The notes below the pieces were generated by a model. That model did not search any database, was not told where the DNA came from, and was given only the letters and a program-made list of their open reading frames with translations. From Campylobacterales bacterium (GTDB taxonomy: Bacteria > Campylobacterota > Campylobacteria > Campylobacterales > Sulfurovaceae), in the NCBI GenBank assembly GCA_016937775.1, contig JAFGVX010000007.1:1-32921 (forward strand): 32,921 nt of DNA, written 5' to 3'. Position numbers and translations under genes: made by a program. Of the stretch, positions 24,074 through 32,921 are shown piece after piece (the first letter of the stretch is position 1; every line of letters starts with the position of its first letter).

Positions 24074-24799
24074 ATGGAAAACTTTAACTCATCATCACCG
24101 GAGGTTACGAAGATTCAAAAGGGGTTGAGACTCACAAAGACTCTCTTGGTATCTTCGCTTATTGCCGGCGAAAAACATACCGGCAAAAAAACACTCATAA
24201 AAGATATATTTCCCGATGCATTTTGGATTGATGCCAAAGATATAAAAGAGGTTAAAAAGGCTTTAGGGGTGCATCAAGAGATTGTTTTAAGTAATTTTGA
24301 TAGTTCTCTTCCTTATAACGAGAGTGACTTTTATTCAAAAAGAGTTATTGCAATATGTGATGACCCGAGTATAATAAAAAAGAAAGAGTCTTTATTCTCT
24401 TTCGTATATCTTTTGCCTCCGTTAAGAGAAAGGCCAAGCGATGTAAAAATATTAGCAAAAAAATTTATTGGTAAGGCGAATGAAATAATGGGGAATGATA
24501 TCGAGATCGATATGAAAAATCTTGATATTTCAGAAAATATAAAGTCACTCAAAAAAAGCATATATAAAGAAGTTTTTTCAAGCTCTTTAGATGAAAATGA
24601 GATAAAATCTATACTTTATAACTATTTTTATAATGCATTTGATGACGAGAACGGCTATAGAGAATTGAGTGAAATATTTGAAAGACCTCTTATTGAAGCA
24701 GGTCTCAAAAAATATAAGTCTCAGTTGAAATTAGCTTCTATATTGAAGATAAATAGAAATACCTTAAGGAAGAAGATATATGAGCTTGGAATCAATTGA
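24074..24799 (+). CDS. NtrC-like regulator with shrunken AAA+ domain and Fis-type HTH
   Basis: 241 residues. It begins like a sigma-54 activator AAA+ domain (LRLTKTLLVSSLIAG) with Walker A-like GEKHTGKK at 32-39, where activators have GExGTGKE. LPPLRERPSDVKILAKKF at 114-131 matches the conserved LPPLRERxxDI block. Walker B and the sigma-54-contacting GAFTGA loop are missing, and the distance between the two kept blocks is about 85 residues against roughly 125-130 in NtrC. No receiver domain is present. The C-terminus (about 207-241, LKLASILKINRNTLRKKIYELGI) is a clear Fis-type helix-turn-helix. It probably binds DNA but cannot activate sigma-54 in the usual way. It overlaps the next gene by 20 bases and lies upstream of amtB-glnK. 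Confidence 0.8.
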   Translation: MENFNSSSPEVTKIQKGLRLTKTLLVSSLIAGEKHTGKKTLIKDIFPDAFWIDAKDIKEVKKALGVHQEIVLSNFDSSLPYNESDFYSKRVIAICDDPSIIKKKESLFSFVYLLPPLRERPSDVKILAKKFIGKANEIMGNDIEIDMKNLDISENIKSLKKSIYKEVFSSSLDENEIKSILYNYFYNAFDDENGYRELSEIFERPLIEAGLKKYKSQLKLASILKINRNTLRKKIYELGIN

Positions 24800-25484
24800 T
24801 CTTAATTTTCTCATCGAAGCAGATATAAATCCGCTTATAATCTTCTCGCCAAACGGTCACATTATTCATCTTAACTCAACTGCAGAGATTCTTTTAGGAT
24901 ATACATCCTCTAAAGAGCTTTTTGAGATTGCTATGCAATATGCTCCTCAAACTTACGGACACAAAACGACCACCATGGATCTCAAGTACAACCTGTTTTT
25001 ATTTTACGGTATTACAATCGGCTATGAAAATGATGAGTATATCTATTTGCGACTCTATCACAAACCTAGACTTGGCAGCACAAAAGAAACTATTAACTGC
25101 AATACAACCGAAACGGATATCAATACACTTATTGAAGCCAACATTGCGCTCTTTCAAATAGAAAGTGACGCCAATATAGCCCTCCTAACGGATCAAGGAT
25201 TGCCTCAGATTAAAATAGATCAAAATCGCTTCTCAAAACTATTAAGTAAATCATTGAAAAATTTTAAGGATTGCGAAAATATAGATATATCACTCAAACT
25301 TATTATCGGTGAATATATTATTATCAAAGAGAAAAAATATCAGATCTTAGCGCTTGAGATAAAATCCAAACAAAGAGATACTACACACGATACAGAGCTC
25401 ACCTCCCTAACAGAAGATAGCTTTATCACTATCTCTCTTAATGAAAATGATATATCGCTTGAAATTCCATTTATTGCGCAATGA
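24780..25484 (+). CDS. NtrB-like PAS protein with degenerate kinase part
   Basis: 234 residues, cytoplasmic, no membrane segment. The N-terminal 95 or so residues look like a PAS domain (LIEADINPLIIFSPNGHIIH then STAEILLGYTSSKELF), similar in position to NtrB/GlnL. The C-terminal half has DQGLPQIKIDQNRFSKLLSK and then LKLIIGEYIIIKEKKYQILALEI, which resemble the N-box helix and beta strands of a histidine-kinase ATPase domain. There is no H-box His and there are no G boxes, so it cannot phosphorylate in the standard way. ATG 24780 has AAGGAAGAAG before it and lies inside the end of the Fis-type gene, so the two are translationally coupled. A nitrogen role is inferred from amtB and glnK next door. 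Confidence 0.7.
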   Translation: MSLESIDLNFLIEADINPLIIFSPNGHIIHLNSTAEILLGYTSSKELFEIAMQYAPQTYGHKTTTMDLKYNLFLFYGITIGYENDEYIYLRLYHKPRLGSTKETINCNTTETDINTLIEANIALFQIESDANIALLTDQGLPQIKIDQNRFSKLLSKSLKNFKDCENIDISLKLIIGEYIIIKEKKYQILALEIKSKQRDTTHDTELTSLTEDSFITISLNENDISLEIPFIAQ

Positions 25485-27256: not shown

Positions 27257-27287
27257 ACAATATCATTAAAACAAAAGAGGGTTGTTT

Positions 27288-28007
27288 ATGATCATAATTC
27301 CTGCGCGTATAGGTTCGAGTAGATTTCCAAATAAAATACTAGCTGATGTTGATGGAATTCCCATGGTTGTCAGAACAGCATTAAGAGCCAAAGATGTAGA
27401 CAAGGTATGTGTTGCAACGGACTCAAATGAAGTTATAGCAATATGCAAATCATTTGAAATTAATGCAATATTAACATCAATTAATCACAATAGCGGAACA
27501 GATAGAATATATGAAGCTGCAAAAAAACTTCAATTAAAAGATACGACACTCATTATTAATGTACAAGCAGATGAACCTTTTTTGGAACAAGAGATTATAC
27601 AAACAGTTCATGCGCTTACAAAAGAAAATGTAAATAATCCAAATATACTTATTAATTCATGCTACAAAGAGATTGACTCCTCTCATGCGGATGATCCAAA
27701 TATTGTTAAGGTAGTAACCGACAAAAATGATATGGCACTCTATTTTTCAAGATCAAAGATTCCCTACTCAAGAGATCATTTTTTGGATCAATATAAAGCA
27801 CATATAGGTATATATGGTTTTACGATGCAATCACTTCATCTTTTTGCTAATATACCAAATGTTGCTTTGGAGGATATTGAAAAACTTGAGCAACTTAGAG
27901 CGCTTTTTGCAGGCTATAAAATTGCTATGAAAAAGGTAGAAACTAATAGCTTTGGTATAGATACACCTGATGATCTAGAAAGAGCCTTGAAGCTTCATAG
28001 GCTCTAA
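27288..28007 (+). CDS. kdsB: CMP-KDO synthetase
   Basis: 239 residues from ATG 27288. It activates 3-deoxy-D-manno-octulosonate with CTP for lipopolysaccharide inner-core assembly in the cytoplasm, and this implies a Gram-negative envelope with LPS or LOS. The nucleotide-binding motif PARIGSSRFPNKIL opens the protein; VNVQADEPF (family: NVQGDEP, here with Ala) and SRSKIPYSRD are further landmarks, with EDIEKLEQLRAL and DTPDDLERAL near the end. AGAGGG precedes the ATG by six bases; a TTG two codons earlier is in frame but less well placed. The 3' end converges with mshG four bases away. Confidence 0.95.
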   Translation: MIIIPARIGSSRFPNKILADVDGIPMVVRTALRAKDVDKVCVATDSNEVIAICKSFEINAILTSINHNSGTDRIYEAAKKLQLKDTTLIINVQADEPFLEQEIIQTVHALTKENVNNPNILINSCYKEIDSSHADDPNIVKVVTDKNDMALYFSRSKIPYSRDHFLDQYKAHIGIYGFTMQSLHLFANIPNVALEDIEKLEQLRALFAGYKIAMKKVETNSFGIDTPDDLERALKLHRL

Positions 28008-28011
28008 CTGT

Positions 28012-29262
28012 TTAACCGCCTTTGACTGCTTTTCCGAGATCCCACATAGGCATAAATATACCAAGCGCCATCAATAGCACCAAGCCCGCAATAAAGAACA
28101 TCATTATAGGCTCAATGTAAGTGCTTAAATTATCGATAATATCTTGAAATTGCATATCATAATATGTCGTTACTTTTCCAAGCATTGAATCTAACTGACC
28201 ACTCGCTTCTCCGGCTTTTATCATCTGAAGCAACATATTTTCAAAAAGTCCCGTCTGCTCAAATGCTTCTGAGAGATTCATCCCTCTTCCGATATTGGCA
28301 TTAACCCGTTCAAGTTGCTCTCTGATAACACTATTATCAACCATTCCGACTGCCGTTTGCAACGCTTCAGATACCGGAATACCGGATCGAACAAGCTCTC
28401 CGAAAACAAGTGTATATTTATGCATTGTAGATAAAAATATGACCTTATTAATAAGATAAAATCTTTTATGAATCAAAATTTTATCTATCTTATATTTAAA
28501 ATCCTCATTATTTTTATAAAAATAGATAAGCGCATATATAGAAACGATAAGAACCACAAGAACAACCAGTCCGTAATTACTAAAAACATATTCAATTTTC
28601 AAAAGTATCTGTGTTGGAATCGGTAAATCTGTTTTAAATTTATCAAAAATCTCTTTAAATTTCGGCACAACAGCCATAATCAAAATAACAAAGGCTATCG
28701 CCATTGCTGTCAACGTAATAAGCGGATAACGAATTGCCTTTTTAAATCTTGCGATATTATTTCTTATGTTCTCTAAGATATCTGCGAGCTTATGGTACGA
28801 ACCTGAGATATTCCCTGTACGCTCACCGAGTTTTGTCATTGCTAAACTCACATGTCCAAACTCATCTCTATATTTCTCCATTGAATCAGAGAGGCTCTTC
28901 CCCGCATTGATATCATTACTAATATCGAAATAAACCTCTTTTAGCTGTGTATTATGTGTATTTGATGCCACATCTTGTAAAGTATCATTAATCGGTATTC
29001 CTGCATCAGTCATAACAGCAATCTGTCTAATAGTGGCTATCTTATCATTGATATTAATACTCTTTTTAAATGATTTCTTAAATTTAGCACTTAAATTAGC
29101 AAGTACAACCTCTACCGGGGGAGAAGTAGGCGTAGCTTTGATGACAATACCGGATGGAAATTTATTTTTTGCCTTCGCAATAGCCAATCTATGATTTTCT
29201 GCTTCAATGAGCTCTAATCTTTTTTTTCCTTTATACATTATCGAAACATTAAAATAATCCAT
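28012..29262 (-). CDS. mshG: MSHA/type II secretion platform protein (GspF/PilC family)
   Basis: 416 residues, polytopic inner-membrane protein on which the pilus or pseudopilus assembles. A cytoplasmic N-terminal stretch (about 1-70, YKGKKRLELIEAENHRLAIA) is followed by two GspF domains, each with KxxxIRQIAVMTDAGIPI-like and LVRSGIPVSEALQTA blocks, and helices near residues 170-190, 218-243 and 380-400. The end AGLVLLMALGIFMPMWDLGKAVKGG is typical. Its ATG overlaps the mshE stop (TAATG), so translation is coupled. It is the last gene of the cluster in this window. The symbol rests on gene order mshL-M-N-E-G rather than sequence alone. Confidence 0.85.
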   Translation of the reverse strand: MDYFNVSIMYKGKKRLELIEAENHRLAIAKAKNKFPSGIVIKATPTSPPVEVVLANLSAKFKKSFKKSININDKIATIRQIAVMTDAGIPINDTLQDVASNTHNTQLKEVYFDISNDINAGKSLSDSMEKYRDEFGHVSLAMTKLGERTGNISGSYHKLADILENIRNNIARFKKAIRYPLITLTAMAIAFVILIMAVVPKFKEIFDKFKTDLPIPTQILLKIEYVFSNYGLVVLVVLIVSIYALIYFYKNNEDFKYKIDKILIHKRFYLINKVIFLSTMHKYTLVFGELVRSGIPVSEALQTAVGMVDNSVIREQLERVNANIGRGMNLSEAFEQTGLFENMLLQMIKAGEASGQLDSMLGKVTTYYDMQFQDIIDNLSTYIEPIMMFFIAGLVLLMALGIFMPMWDLGKAVKGG

Positions 29263-30998
29263 TACAACCTCGCTACTCTATAGACTTCATCTAAAGTGGT
29301 TTTACCCTGCAGTGCCTTATTGATACCATCTTGAAACATTGATTCAAACCCCTCTTTTATAGCTTGCTTCTCAAGCTCCTCTTTAGAGGCTCCTGAAGCA
29401 ATCATATGAGATAATTTTTCACTAATTAGAAGCATCTCAGAGACCATCTCTCTTCCTGCATATCCACTATGCCTGCACTCTTTGCACCCATCACCTTTAT
29501 AAAATTGATATTCACTTGGAATAAACTCTTTTATATCCTCTACGATATTAGGAGGTAGAATTATCGGTGTTTTGCAGTGTTCACATATTTTTCTTACCAA
29601 CCGTTGTGCCTGGATGCCCACAAGTGCACCACTCACTAAATAATTTTCAACACCCATATCAACCATTCTATTGATTGCGCTCACTGAATCATTTGTATGA
29701 AGAGTCGAGAGCACGAGGTGCCCTGTAAGTGCGGCCTGAATAGCTATACGAAGTGTTTCTGTGTCACGAATCTCACCTATCATAATCTTATCGGGATCTT
29801 GTCTTAAAATAGAACGTAAAGCATCCGAAAAACTTAGCCCAACATGAGCATTCACTTGCACTTGTTGTATACCGCTCATTTGGTACTCCACCGGATCTTC
29901 TACGGTAATAATTTTATCTTTGACATCACGTATAGTATTAAGTGCACCATAGAGTGTTGTTGTTTTACCGCTTCCTGTTGGTCCGGTCACCAATACGATT
30001 CCATAAGGAACTTGTATCGCTTTTGAAAATTTATCGTAACACACCTTACTCATACCCGAATCTTCTAAGCGTATCATCGCCTTTGTTTTATCCAGTATCC
30101 TTAATACTATCGACTCCCCAAAGAGTGTAGGCAAACTTGAGACCCTAAAATCAAAATCTTTACCGTTAATTGCTGCACTAAAACGACCATCTTGCGGCTT
30201 TCTTTTTTCTGCAATATCAAGATTAGATAAAAGTTTCATTCTTGAAGATAAAGGTGCAAAAATATCCTTATCGAAAGAGAAAGTCTGTCGAAGCATCCCA
30301 TCGACCCTCTCTCGCACCGAACAACTTTTTTCCAATGCTTCAATATGAATATCACTGGCACCTGCATAGATAGCAGATTTTAATATGAGATCGATAAGTT
30401 TTAATATAGCCGACGATTCCCCTTCTAGTGTCTCTTTTCCCTCTTGAGCTAAATCTTTACGAATATCAACAACAAGGCTCTTAATGCTCTCATTTGTCTC
30501 AAGCCTTCTAAGGTATTGTAATATCTGTTTTGGGCTTGCAATAGCAACAGAAATAGGTTTTTTAGGAAATATTCGCGATATAGAGTCATATGCCGACATA
30601 TCAAGAGGATCAGAAAAAACAACTGTAACATGCAAGTCGGTCTCTTCAACAGGAATAACATTATATTTCATAAGTTGCTTATAGGGAACTTCAGAAAAAA
30701 GTCGCATATCAAGCTCCATCTCATCAAGGTCAATAAATTTAACCTTAAGTTCATTGGCGGCCATTTTTAAAATATTTCTAGAGTCAATTCCTTCTATCTG
30801 CTCAACTTCCTCTAAAGTAACCTCTCCTTTTCTTATTTTCTGAGTTAAATATTTGATAAATTTATCTTCATCAAGCATATTCTCAGCTATCAAATTGGCA
30901 ACAGAAACCTTCTTTGGCGGTCTGCTCTTGACTAAAACTGATAGATCATCTTTTGAGATAAGCTTATCTCGCAACATCATCTCAATTATTTTTAGCAT
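29262..30998 (-). CDS. mshE: MSHA pilus assembly ATPase (GspE/PilB family)
   Basis: 578 residues from ATG 30998 (AAGGGG five bases upstream; GTG 31004 is less well placed). It is a hexameric cytoplasmic motor for pilus extension. A tandem helical motif at about 1-55 corresponds to the MshEN cyclic-di-GMP domain but lacks the Arg-Leu-Gly residues. A GSPII_E_N region follows, then Walker A GPTGSGKTTTLYG (about 340), ASDIHIE (Asp box region), Walker B ILRQDPDKIMIGEIRD (about 403) and the GHLVLSTLHTND histidine box. A tetracysteine zinc motif is visible (CEHC near 472, CKEC near 506). It overlaps mshG and follows mshN by a short gap. Confidence 0.9.
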   Translation of the reverse strand: MLKIIEMMLRDKLISKDDLSVLVKSRPPKKVSVANLIAENMLDEDKFIKYLTQKIRKGEVTLEEVEQIEGIDSRNILKMAANELKVKFIDLDEMELDMRLFSEVPYKQLMKYNVIPVEETDLHVTVVFSDPLDMSAYDSISRIFPKKPISVAIASPKQILQYLRRLETNESIKSLVVDIRKDLAQEGKETLEGESSAILKLIDLILKSAIYAGASDIHIEALEKSCSVRERVDGMLRQTFSFDKDIFAPLSSRMKLLSNLDIAEKRKPQDGRFSAAINGKDFDFRVSSLPTLFGESIVLRILDKTKAMIRLEDSGMSKVCYDKFSKAIQVPYGIVLVTGPTGSGKTTTLYGALNTIRDVKDKIITVEDPVEYQMSGIQQVQVNAHVGLSFSDALRSILRQDPDKIMIGEIRDTETLRIAIQAALTGHLVLSTLHTNDSVSAINRMVDMGVENYLVSGALVGIQAQRLVRKICEHCKTPIILPPNIVEDIKEFIPSEYQFYKGDGCKECRHSGYAGREMVSEMLLISEKLSHMIASGASKEELEKQAIKEGFESMFQDGINKALQGKTTLDEVYRVARL

Positions 30999-31017
30999 AT
31001 CCACCCCTTGTTTTAAT

Positions 31018-31701
31018 TTATATAATATCTTTTTTAATTCTATCTAAAAGAGTTGCCACTTCTTTTGAATCTTGAGTTTTCAAAAAAGCCCTTAGAAGTT
31101 CTATAGCTTCCTCTTTTTTTCCAAGTTTATATTTTGCTTTGGCTAATATCATCCAACTCTCATCAATATTTGCAATCTTATTTGTTTCAACTGCCCAATC
31201 ATGCGCTTTGGAATACTCTCCGTCAGAATAATATGTAGAGGCTAAAAAAAGTGAATCATATGGATCTTTCTCTTTTTTGAATCGCTCCATGATTCCATCA
31301 AGCACACCCTTATCAACAGAGACTTTTTTTATCTCAATTGCTACTTTAGGTTTATTTGTTATTGTTGCGCTTGCATTCACGGGATCAACCGGAAAAGCAG
31401 CATCTTTTGGATCAAGGAAGAGGGCATCTTCTACATGATTGTTACTTATATTTTGTGTACTTTCAAAACTATCATTATTGTTCTGTGTTTCAATTTTTGT
31501 AATTAAAGTATTTGTTTTTAATTCAATATTCTGATCTTTTAAATTAGATGTTGTTGCTGTATGTGCTCTTGCATTATCACTACTTAAAAATATACCTAGA
31601 ATTGCAATAAATATAAATAGAGCACTTAAAACACCGGCGGGTGCATACTGTTTAATTTTATATCTCTGCCATCGCTCTTCTAGTTGCTTTATCTCATACA
31701 T
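31018..31701 (-). CDS. mshN: MshN-like membrane protein with TPR repeats
   Basis: 227 residues. A cytoplasmic N-terminus (IKQLEERWQRYKIKQYA) precedes one transmembrane helix (about 22-40, PAGVLSALFIFIAILGIFLS). A low-complexity, Asn/Thr-rich linker (about 45-115) leads to a C-terminal TPR-like region (about 130-227, SLFLASTYYSDGEYSKAHDW and ESWMILAKAKYKLGKKEEAI). The periplasmic TPR domain probably docks pilus assembly partners, as in MshN or PilW/PilF-type proteins. Sequence identity to Vibrio MshN cannot be measured here; the name follows from position between mshM and mshE and from the TM-plus-TPR layout. It overlaps the ATPase gene by eight bases. Confidence 0.65.
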   Translation of the reverse strand: MYEIKQLEERWQRYKIKQYAPAGVLSALFIFIAILGIFLSSDNARAHTATTSNLKDQNIELKTNTLITKIETQNNNDSFESTQNISNNHVEDALFLDPKDAAFPVDPVNASATITNKPKVAIEIKKVSVDKGVLDGIMERFKKEKDPYDSLFLASTYYSDGEYSKAHDWAVETNKIANIDESWMILAKAKYKLGKKEEAIELLRAFLKTQDSKEVATLLDRIKKDII

Positions 31702-32506
31702 GTATATATCCTAACCTTAAAGCTGCCATCTCAATAATCTTTGGATCCATTGATTGGTAATTTACTTTAAGTGGCTCGTGCTTATCATAATGCTCACTGA
31801 TTTCGAATATAGAGTAAAGCAGTTTATTACAATCTCTATAATTTCCTTGAGTGATTTTATGAATTAAACGCACTTCCTTGTCTTTAATAGTATTGGCGAC
31901 CTCATAGAGGTCTCTATTGAGTAATTTTTTTCTTATATAATCACCAAGTTCATTCCTTGAAGCATTTTTCAATTCAACTATCTCCCAAATTCGTGTCTGA
32001 AAATGTCTTTTTGCTATTAAATCCTCATTTTCATTCTTATGCAAAGAAATGACAAATTTTACTGCTCTCGTATCAGAAAGAAGTCTAATCTTTTCTAAAA
32101 CATCAGCATTATACATTTGCGCCTCATCTATCAAGAAAACAACTTCTCTTTTGCCTCGTATACTTTTGCAATAGTTAACTAAACCAAAAAAATTTATCTT
32201 CGCGTCTAGCGATACATTCTCGCTTGTCAATGGTGCAACAAGACATCTCAGAAAATAGTTTTCATCGGCAGCAGGAATCTCTAAATAATGAATCTCTTTT
32301 TCATATTTAAGTTCATTATATAATCTATTAAGCAATATGCTCTTTCCTGTTCCGGGCTTGCCAAAAATTAAAATCATCTTCAATGGTTTATCTAAAGATT
32401 TTTTCAACTTATCATATGCGATGCTTGATGATTCTAATTCTACATAATCACCTACATCAACACTATCAATAAAGACATTTTTGGCATCCTCATATCTACT
32501 TTTCAT
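31694..32506 (-). CDS. mshM: ExeA/GspA-type AAA+ ATPase (MshM-like)
   Basis: 270 residues, a single AAA+ domain. Walker A is FGKPGTGKSILLNRL (about 47-61), Walker B is REVVFLIDEAQMYNADVLEKI (about 120-138), and VKFVISLHKN holds a sensor-1-type Ser. RNELGDYIRKKLL then HKITQGNYRDCNKLLYSI complete the ExeA-like C-terminal lid. In type II systems ExeA/GspA helps secretin assembly; the Vibrio counterpart is MshM. It lacks the peptidoglycan-binding and transmembrane tail of full-length ExeA, so it is a short cytoplasmic form, as is usual for MshM. Its ATG lies inside the end of the secretin gene, and its stop overlaps mshN. Confidence 0.82.
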   Translation of the reverse strand: MKSRYEDAKNVFIDSVDVGDYVELESSSIAYDKLKKSLDKPLKMILIFGKPGTGKSILLNRLYNELKYEKEIHYLEIPAADENYFLRCLVAPLTSENVSLDAKINFFGLVNYCKSIRGKREVVFLIDEAQMYNADVLEKIRLLSDTRAVKFVISLHKNENEDLIAKRHFQTRIWEIVELKNASRNELGDYIRKKLLNRDLYEVANTIKDKEVRLIHKITQGNYRDCNKLLYSIFEISEHYDKHEPLKVNYQSMDPKIIEMAALRLGYIHV

Positions 32507-32921
32507 TCAATTTCATATACCCCAAATCTTTCATATCAAGATCTCTTGCATTTTTAACCACATGGGGTGTGATAACAATAACAAGCTCTTCAACAGTCTC
32601 AATCTTCTCGTTTCTACTAAAAAAGTACTTTAAGCCCGGTATATCACCAAGAAGTGGAACTTTATTTGATGTAGTTCCATTTTTAGTTGTAATGAGTCCG
32701 CCCAAAATTGCATGCTCTCCATCTTTTACTTTTATAACAGATGCAATCTGTCTTCTAATAAGATCCGGCGGTATTGTTCTTGCTGTATCCGCTGAACTAG
32801 AAATTGTCTCGACTGTATCAGAAACTGAAGGGTTAATTTTTAACGTAACCATACCATTTGGATTAATTTCAGGTGTTATATCAAGCAAAATCCCTGCAAA
32901 TACGGAATCAACAAGCTCTCC
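32496..32921 (-). CDS. mshL: MSHA/type II secretin, C-terminal part (cut by window edge)
   Basis: The last 141 residues of an outer-membrane secretin; the 5' part lies beyond the window. It starts in frame at the edge with GELVDSVFAGILLDITPEIN and ends KLNEK. LDITPEINPNGMVTLKINPSV, then ILGGLI and the hallmark VPLLGDIPGLKYFFSRNEK and VIVITPHVV are the secretin (GspD/PilQ) C-terminal domain, which forms the gated beta-barrel. Placed upstream of mshM-mshN-mshE-mshG, it corresponds to MshL. The frame ends overlapping the mshM ATG. The symbol depends on gene order. Confidence 0.88.
   Translation of the reverse strand, partial: GELVDSVFAGILLDITPEINPNGMVTLKINPSVSDTVETISSSADTARTIPPDLIRRQIASVIKVKDGEHAILGGLITTKNGTTSNKVPLLGDIPGLKYFFSRNEKIETVEELVIVITPHVVKNARDLDMKDLGYMKLNEK

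Follow-up and report, generated by a model that had tools for sequence, protein, structure and literature searches.

An eight-gene operon of a Campylobacterales bacterium is probably the undivided form of the Campylobacter Cts DNA-uptake machine

What kind of machine is encoded by a block of pilus assembly genes that is followed by no pilin gene? This question is raised by the window studied here, which spans 32,921 nucleotides (G000:C107:1-32921) of a Campylobacterales genome that consists of 108 contigs and is 89% complete. The end of the window carries five consecutive open reading frames (ORFs) on the minus strand, running from 32921 down to 28012, whose products resemble MshL (partial), MshM, MshN, MshE and MshG of the mannose-sensitive haemagglutinin (MSHA) pilus and are called L, M, N, E and G below. 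The ORFs and their domain matches (Table 1) agree with an earlier note on this DNA, which had read the block as a series mshL-M-N-E-G with overlaps almost throughout: L and M overlap by 11 nucleotides (nt), M and N by 8 nt and E and G by 1 nt, and a gap of 13 nt separates N from E. Also as stated there, the block ends at G against kdsB. No prepilin gene is present among the genes of the block (28012-32921), and the gene next after G is the convergent kdsB, the ends of the two genes lying 4 nt apart. We propose that these genes probably belong to an undivided, ancestral form of the Campylobacter Cts machine, that is, a retractable type IV pilus (T4P) for DNA uptake. The proposal is based on gene content and order, homology to the cts genes, the synteny of pilin-priA-comEC and of pilD, and the loss of a cyclic di-GMP (c-di-GMP) binding motif.

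The secretin gene L is cut by the end of the window, which holds its 3′ part only; the best NCBIfam model for this short fragment is MshL (2.2e-36, below the curated cut-off). The remainder of the operon was located by a DNA search with the operon of the closest relative. It lies at the start of contig C63 (G000:C63:1-3818), which carries the 5′ part of the secretin gene followed by K-, J- and I-like genes (138, 217 and 510 codons, respectively), era and hslU. C63 and the window were read as separate contigs; since the same secretin stretch is encoded at the start of the one and at the end of the other, the two abut. The J-like protein matches PilO (4.1e-7), and the I and K proteins, which gave no significant Pfam match, were assigned by their position and by family profile. 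Because C63 supplies the upstream K, J and I genes, which the earlier note had proposed to seek beyond 32921, the system comprises eight genes in the order I-J-K-L-M-N-E-G.

The order era-I-J-K-L-M-N-E-G was found in all 13 loci fetched from family f1, that of the window, the deviations being a secretin gene present as two ORFs in one locus and an extra ORF ahead of E in another. The five-gene order that the earlier note had picked out is therefore not due to chance. The convergent kdsB gene marks the end of the operon in 10 of these 13 loci and, outside f1, an I gene is present in 18 loci, in 11 of which era adjoins the operon. A homologue of M is present in 48 of 59 genomes, including that of the window. 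For the E ATPase, 284 of the 299 genomes of the order gave a match with E <= 1e-60, a count that includes other ATPases of the superfamily, namely type II secretion system (T2SS)-type and MSHA-like copies; the 15 genomes lacking a match all belong to family f13 (14 to one genus, one to another). In two Helicobacter-like genomes (L214 and L256) the operon reads I'-J'-K-L-N-E-G, lacks M and has divergent prepilin-like genes on its flanks; in these genomes the pilins are thus local to the operon.

We then compared the operon with the Cts locus, using a C. coli genome (G289) as a stand-in for C. jejuni; its E protein is 100% identical to that of C. coli record NZ_FBQX01000001.1. For ctsF, ctsR and era we relied on locus numbers that we presume to be correct, and the gene ahead of K in C. 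coli is one that we take to be nifJ. The C. coli locus reads K-L-M-N-E-G (ctsR-D-P-X-E-F), the same order as in the operon. BLASTP matched the C. coli proteins to those of the window family for E (42% identity, 3e-143), L (31%, 3e-79) and G (28%, 2e-50), and family hidden Markov models matched M to the ctsP gene (1.8e-25) and N to the ctsX gene (1.6e-30). Among 107 C. coli proteins, CtsR was the top match to the K profile, with a probability of 97.9%. In both organisms the N protein combines a transmembrane (TM) helix around residue 18 with a match to the tetratricopeptide repeat (TPR) in its C-terminal part. A published table, which assigns ctsD-ctsP-ctsX-ctsE to cj1474c-cj1471c (PMC8308473), lists 472 residues for CtsD and 519 for CtsE; the C. 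coli L and E proteins, of 472 and 520 residues, agree with these lengths. In three of five loci read of genus g34 (Campylobacter-type genomes) M is missing, which accords with a report that C. lari has no ctsP.

The likeness extends to genes outside the operon. On contig C22 of the window's genome a pilin gene is followed by priA and ispG, and the same arrangement pilin-priA-ispG is found in C. coli. The two priA-linked pilins are similar only over the N-terminal 55 residues (38%), and we therefore tie them by position. The place that the pilin occupies in this arrangement is the location printed for Cj0683, a pilin-like protein on which efficient uptake of DNA depends and which is presented as unique to Campylobacter (PMC10046745). 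Both genomes also share the series glmU-coaBC-uppS-pilD-lptF-truA, to which C. coli adds one gene. The names in this series are those that we presume from the sequences. Thus, the operon and Cts have in common the K-L-M-N-E-G order, an N protein with TM helix and TPR, an AAA-type M, a pilin at priA-ispG, pilD between uppS and lptF, and ComEC. They differ in the place of I and J, which in the window's genome have remained part of the operon next to era, in the length of M (270 residues versus about 200 in Cts), in the longer N-terminal part of the window's E, and in that pilin, priA and comEC are contiguous and PilT is present; no PilT was seen in the 340 kb of C. coli sequence fetched and searched. 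Among systems that have been studied by experiment, the Campylobacter Cts DNA-uptake system is the one most closely related to the operon.

If the operon encodes a pilus, its missing parts should lie elsewhere, as the earlier note had anticipated when it spoke of distant pilins. The genome contains two prepilin genes above the Pfam cut-off and one prepilin peptidase gene, all away from the operon. It also encodes two PilT-like ATPases, and its only ATPase of the GspE/PilB type is the E protein of the window. A third, weak prepilin match (Pfam, E 0.95) was dropped. The prepilin pattern TTYWCNHTNNTNGAR occurred at 62 places versus 104 for a reversed control and is uninformative alone; when a leader and a stretch of hydrophobic residues were also required, only the two Pfam-supported prepilins were left. 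As the scan covered about 283 kb (overlaps counted) and not the whole genome, further prepilins may exist. Together, prepilin peptidase, prepilins, assembly and retraction ATPases, a PilMNOPQ-like set and a platform protein make up a broad T4P set. The two pilT-like genes lie far from the operon, in the arrangements tal-pilT-hemB (L086) and gatC-pilT-cvpA-fur (L087), where we presume the names tal, hemB, gatC, cvpA and fur from the sequences. The second prepilin gene (L130, G000:C28) directly adjoins a gene pair that we take to encode an ATP-citrate-lyase-like enzyme, a neighbour which tentatively hints that the organism may be Sulfurimonas-like. A fourth match to the T2SSE family was rejected as unrelated and conjugation-like: it is a VirB11-type ATPase which, with its VirB-like neighbours (L088, G000:C97), constitutes a remnant or a part of a conjugation system.

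The other prepilin gene is the one on C22, where pilin-priA-ispG-dnaB-comEC are contiguous. A search with PF03772 gave no match in this genome because comEC is cut by the end of C22; absence of the gene is rejected, as its 5′ part, encoding the N-terminal 144 residues, is present there. A ComEC domain was found in 53 of the 59 genomes searched. Neighbourhoods of comEC were counted in 52 other genomes plus that of the window (n=53), genome G049 being left out because its fetched stretch (L190) lacks comEC. The first 20 neighbourhoods had been picked partly for a listed nearby pilin, and the remaining ones were added to correct this selection. Among the 53 loci, 29 contain priA and 25 contain a prepilin gene; all 25 are among the 29, and the prepilin gene is at most 1.4 kb from priA. 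In G049 (L190) two prepilin genes stand beside genes resembling fliW and proC, and we take it that the pseudopilin gene ctsT of C. jejuni adjoins proC.

From these parts we infer pilus formation, retraction and DNA uptake in this organism. The I, J and K proteins are predicted to be PilMN-, PilO- and PilP-like, L to be the secretin, M an ExeA-like ATPase, N a TPR anchor, and E and G the PilB- and PilC-like proteins. PilD would cleave the prepilins encoded beside priA and elsewhere, and E and G would polymerise them. I, J and K would align the inner-membrane platform with the secretin L, which M and N may help to set in the cell wall. The fibre would be retracted by PilT1 and PilT2, and DNA pulled into the periplasm would pass through ComEC.

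The label given to the block in the earlier note, an MSHA-type pilus, suggests another function: an adhesive or twitching pilus that serves mainly in attachment, the nearness of pilin and comEC being a relic. The Vibrio MSHA genes stand in the order mshI-J-K-L-M-N-E-G. The operon shares with them these eight assembly genes in order, MshL as the best secretin model and an MshEN domain in the ATPase, and its two PilT genes would suit a retractile surface pilus. Moreover, the T4P genes described in Thiovulum genomes include homologues of MSH-like and other kinds, and short filaments observed there were interpreted as T4P (PMC9938260). The window operon differs from MSHA in having no pilin genes and in its ATPase. 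In Vibrio MshE, the MshEN domain binds c-di-GMP via two 24-residue motifs (RLGxx...Q; PMC5013675). Scoring the best 24-residue stretch over seven key residues of this motif gave three of seven for the window ATPase. At least six of the seven were present in none of 11 f1 ATPases but in both type B, MSHA-like rows; of the 26 type A rows, five reached this score, none of them from f1. From these counts, the motif is probably ancestral and was lost in the window family. Some relatives that carry a window-type operon also have a second, full type B operon (loci L047 and L050), in which a large MshQ-like protein and several prepilins precede I-J-K-L-M-N-E-G and the first c-di-GMP motif is intact. 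The loss of the motif, the clustering of pilins with priA-comEC, and the homology and synteny with the Campylobacter uptake locus all argue against attachment as the main function. So do mutants of the Campylobacter secretin and ComEC: transformation was lost in them, whereas the part played in forming biofilms was negligible (PMC10046745). Thus, of the MSHA label the gene order and the MshL model stand, whereas the lost motif, the dispersed pilins and the closer kinship to Cts speak against it; an attachment pilus is possible but unlikely. The secretion device that the earlier note had also considered, a T2SS exporting proteins, fares worse and is very improbable. The block does contain a GspD/E/F-type core, and the title of a 2003 paper presents C. 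jejuni Cts as T2SS components. However, the order also contains true T2SS operons, which are separate and have other components, and no gspC or pseudopilin genes are present in the eight-gene operon. When 48 ATPases were placed in a tree, the true T2SS rows split off as their own clade (support 100/98), and uniting the Campylobacter Cts ATPases with this clade was rejected (approximately unbiased test, p-AU 4e-7).

A different doubt concerns the I and J genes, which the cts locus of C. coli lacks. In C. coli, rplI-hslV-hslU-era is followed by genes of 358 and then 185 codons (L363:8651-10281), here I' and J'. When C. coli proteins from the 340 kb plus the cts locus were ranked, the J profile placed the 185-residue protein first of 164 (96.8%, next 5.3%) and the I profile, built on 26 sequences, placed the 358-residue protein first of 153 (45.4%, next 23.6%), a value that rose to 91.5% (next 17.2%) upon addition of five intermediates. 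J' has a TM helix near its N-terminus, as has the window organism's J. In C. jejuni the pair presumably corresponds to Cj0660c/Cj0659c. We predict that this era-linked pair constitutes the missing alignment proteins of Cts. Alternatively, the pair might be flagellar or unrelated, in which case the operon was never split; we regard this as rather unlikely. The weak plain BLASTP match of I' (E 0.01, to a Helicobacter-like I') favours an unrelated pair. The literature describes Cj0660c as a transmembrane and Cj0659c as a periplasmic protein, mentions Cj0653 near Cj0659, and calls Cj0659c, which is probably J', essential in a genome-wide study (PMC5557513), unlike a competence gene. A flagellar role is suggested by FcpM/N/O, flagellar cage proteins of C. 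jejuni that are homologues of PilM/N/O (PMC11870540). The same report places FcpMNO at CJJ81176_0481-0479, with miaB upstream, and the identification of the era-linked pair as FcpM/N/O is therefore rejected. The profile ranks, the TM helix of J' and the position of both genes at the ancestral place after rplI-hslV-hslU-era also argue against this alternative. No link of the pair to transformation was found in the open-licence literature.

Several observations weigh against an undivided Cts machine and its descent into Campylobacter. The same gene order serves adhesion in V. cholerae. The search gave no more than two clear prepilins, of which one is encoded away from comEC, and the genome is incomplete. 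As many as 28 of the 53 comEC loci showed no pilin, owing to contig ends or to real absence, and 4 of the 29 priA loci lack one; in two of the four, priA borders the end of a contig. Without intermediates the I' match in C. coli is weak (45%), and I' has a TM helix whereas the window organism's I has none at the threshold used. Finally, the Cts rows of the tree are placed beside Helicobacter-like and Arcobacter-like rows with long branches and not with the operon-keeping Campylobacteraceae rows, a placement for which we offer fast evolution as a reading. On balance we lean towards the view that the Campylobacter uptake machine is a split descendant of the eight-gene operon, with the era-linked pair as its alignment proteins and Cj0683 as the positional heir of an order-wide priA-linked pilin, and that lost c-di-GMP control and the scattering of parts narrowed the pilus to DNA uptake.

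Clusters like that of the window are not new in the phylum, as pilMNOPQ clusters, mostly with fused pilM-pilN, were already reported in half of its species (PMC11870540). The window operon shares their conserved order, and its 510-codon I gene fits the fused form. A term search of PMC11870540 gave no mention of cts, competence or transformation. The split-descendant view would supply the partly known Campylobacter apparatus with a complete ancestral parts list and two predictions of missing genes, and it is at odds with the statement that FcpMNO are the sole T4P components encoded by C. jejuni 81-176 (PMC11870540). It also predicts that Cj0683 is not specific to Campylobacter and has its origin in an ancient pilin linked to priA, contrary to the published claim that it has no homologue outside the genus. 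In addition, the 284 of 299 genomes with an E match, T2SS-type and MSHA-like copies included, suggest that much of the order, beyond the pathogens, carries a DNA-uptake machine.

Table 1. Genes of the block at the end of the window and the flanking kdsB gene.
Feature	Coordinates	Strand	Evidence and remarks
mshG/gspF/ctsF-like inner-membrane platform protein, 416 aa	28012..29262	-	Pfam T2SSF 4.5e-50; C. coli counterpart 28%, 2e-50
mshE/pilB/ctsE-like assembly ATPase, 580 aa	29262..31004	-	Pfam T2SSE 4.5e-133 and MshEN 8.8e-19; c-di-GMP motif lost (3/7)
mshN/ctsX-like TM+TPR protein, 227 aa	31018..31701	-	ANAPC3/TPR 1.2e-9 (C-terminal); N-terminal TM residues 18-36
mshM/ExeA/ctsP-like AAA ATPase, 270 aa	31694..32506	-	AAA_22 4.6e-12
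mshL/pilQ/ctsD-like secretin, C-terminal 141 codons	32496..32921	-	Secretin 6.1e-34; rest on contig C63
kdsB	27282..28007	+	NCBIfam kdsB 2.8e-75; outside the system, conserved flank

Elsewhere in the window, two ORFs on the plus strand (24074-25484) stand ahead of amtB-glnK. One, of 241 codons, encodes a Fis/NtrC-type helix-turn-helix without a full match to the sigma-54 activator domain; the product of the other, of 234 codons, gave no Pfam or NCBIfam match, and its start resembles a PAS domain. The two look like a shrunken NtrC and NtrB.

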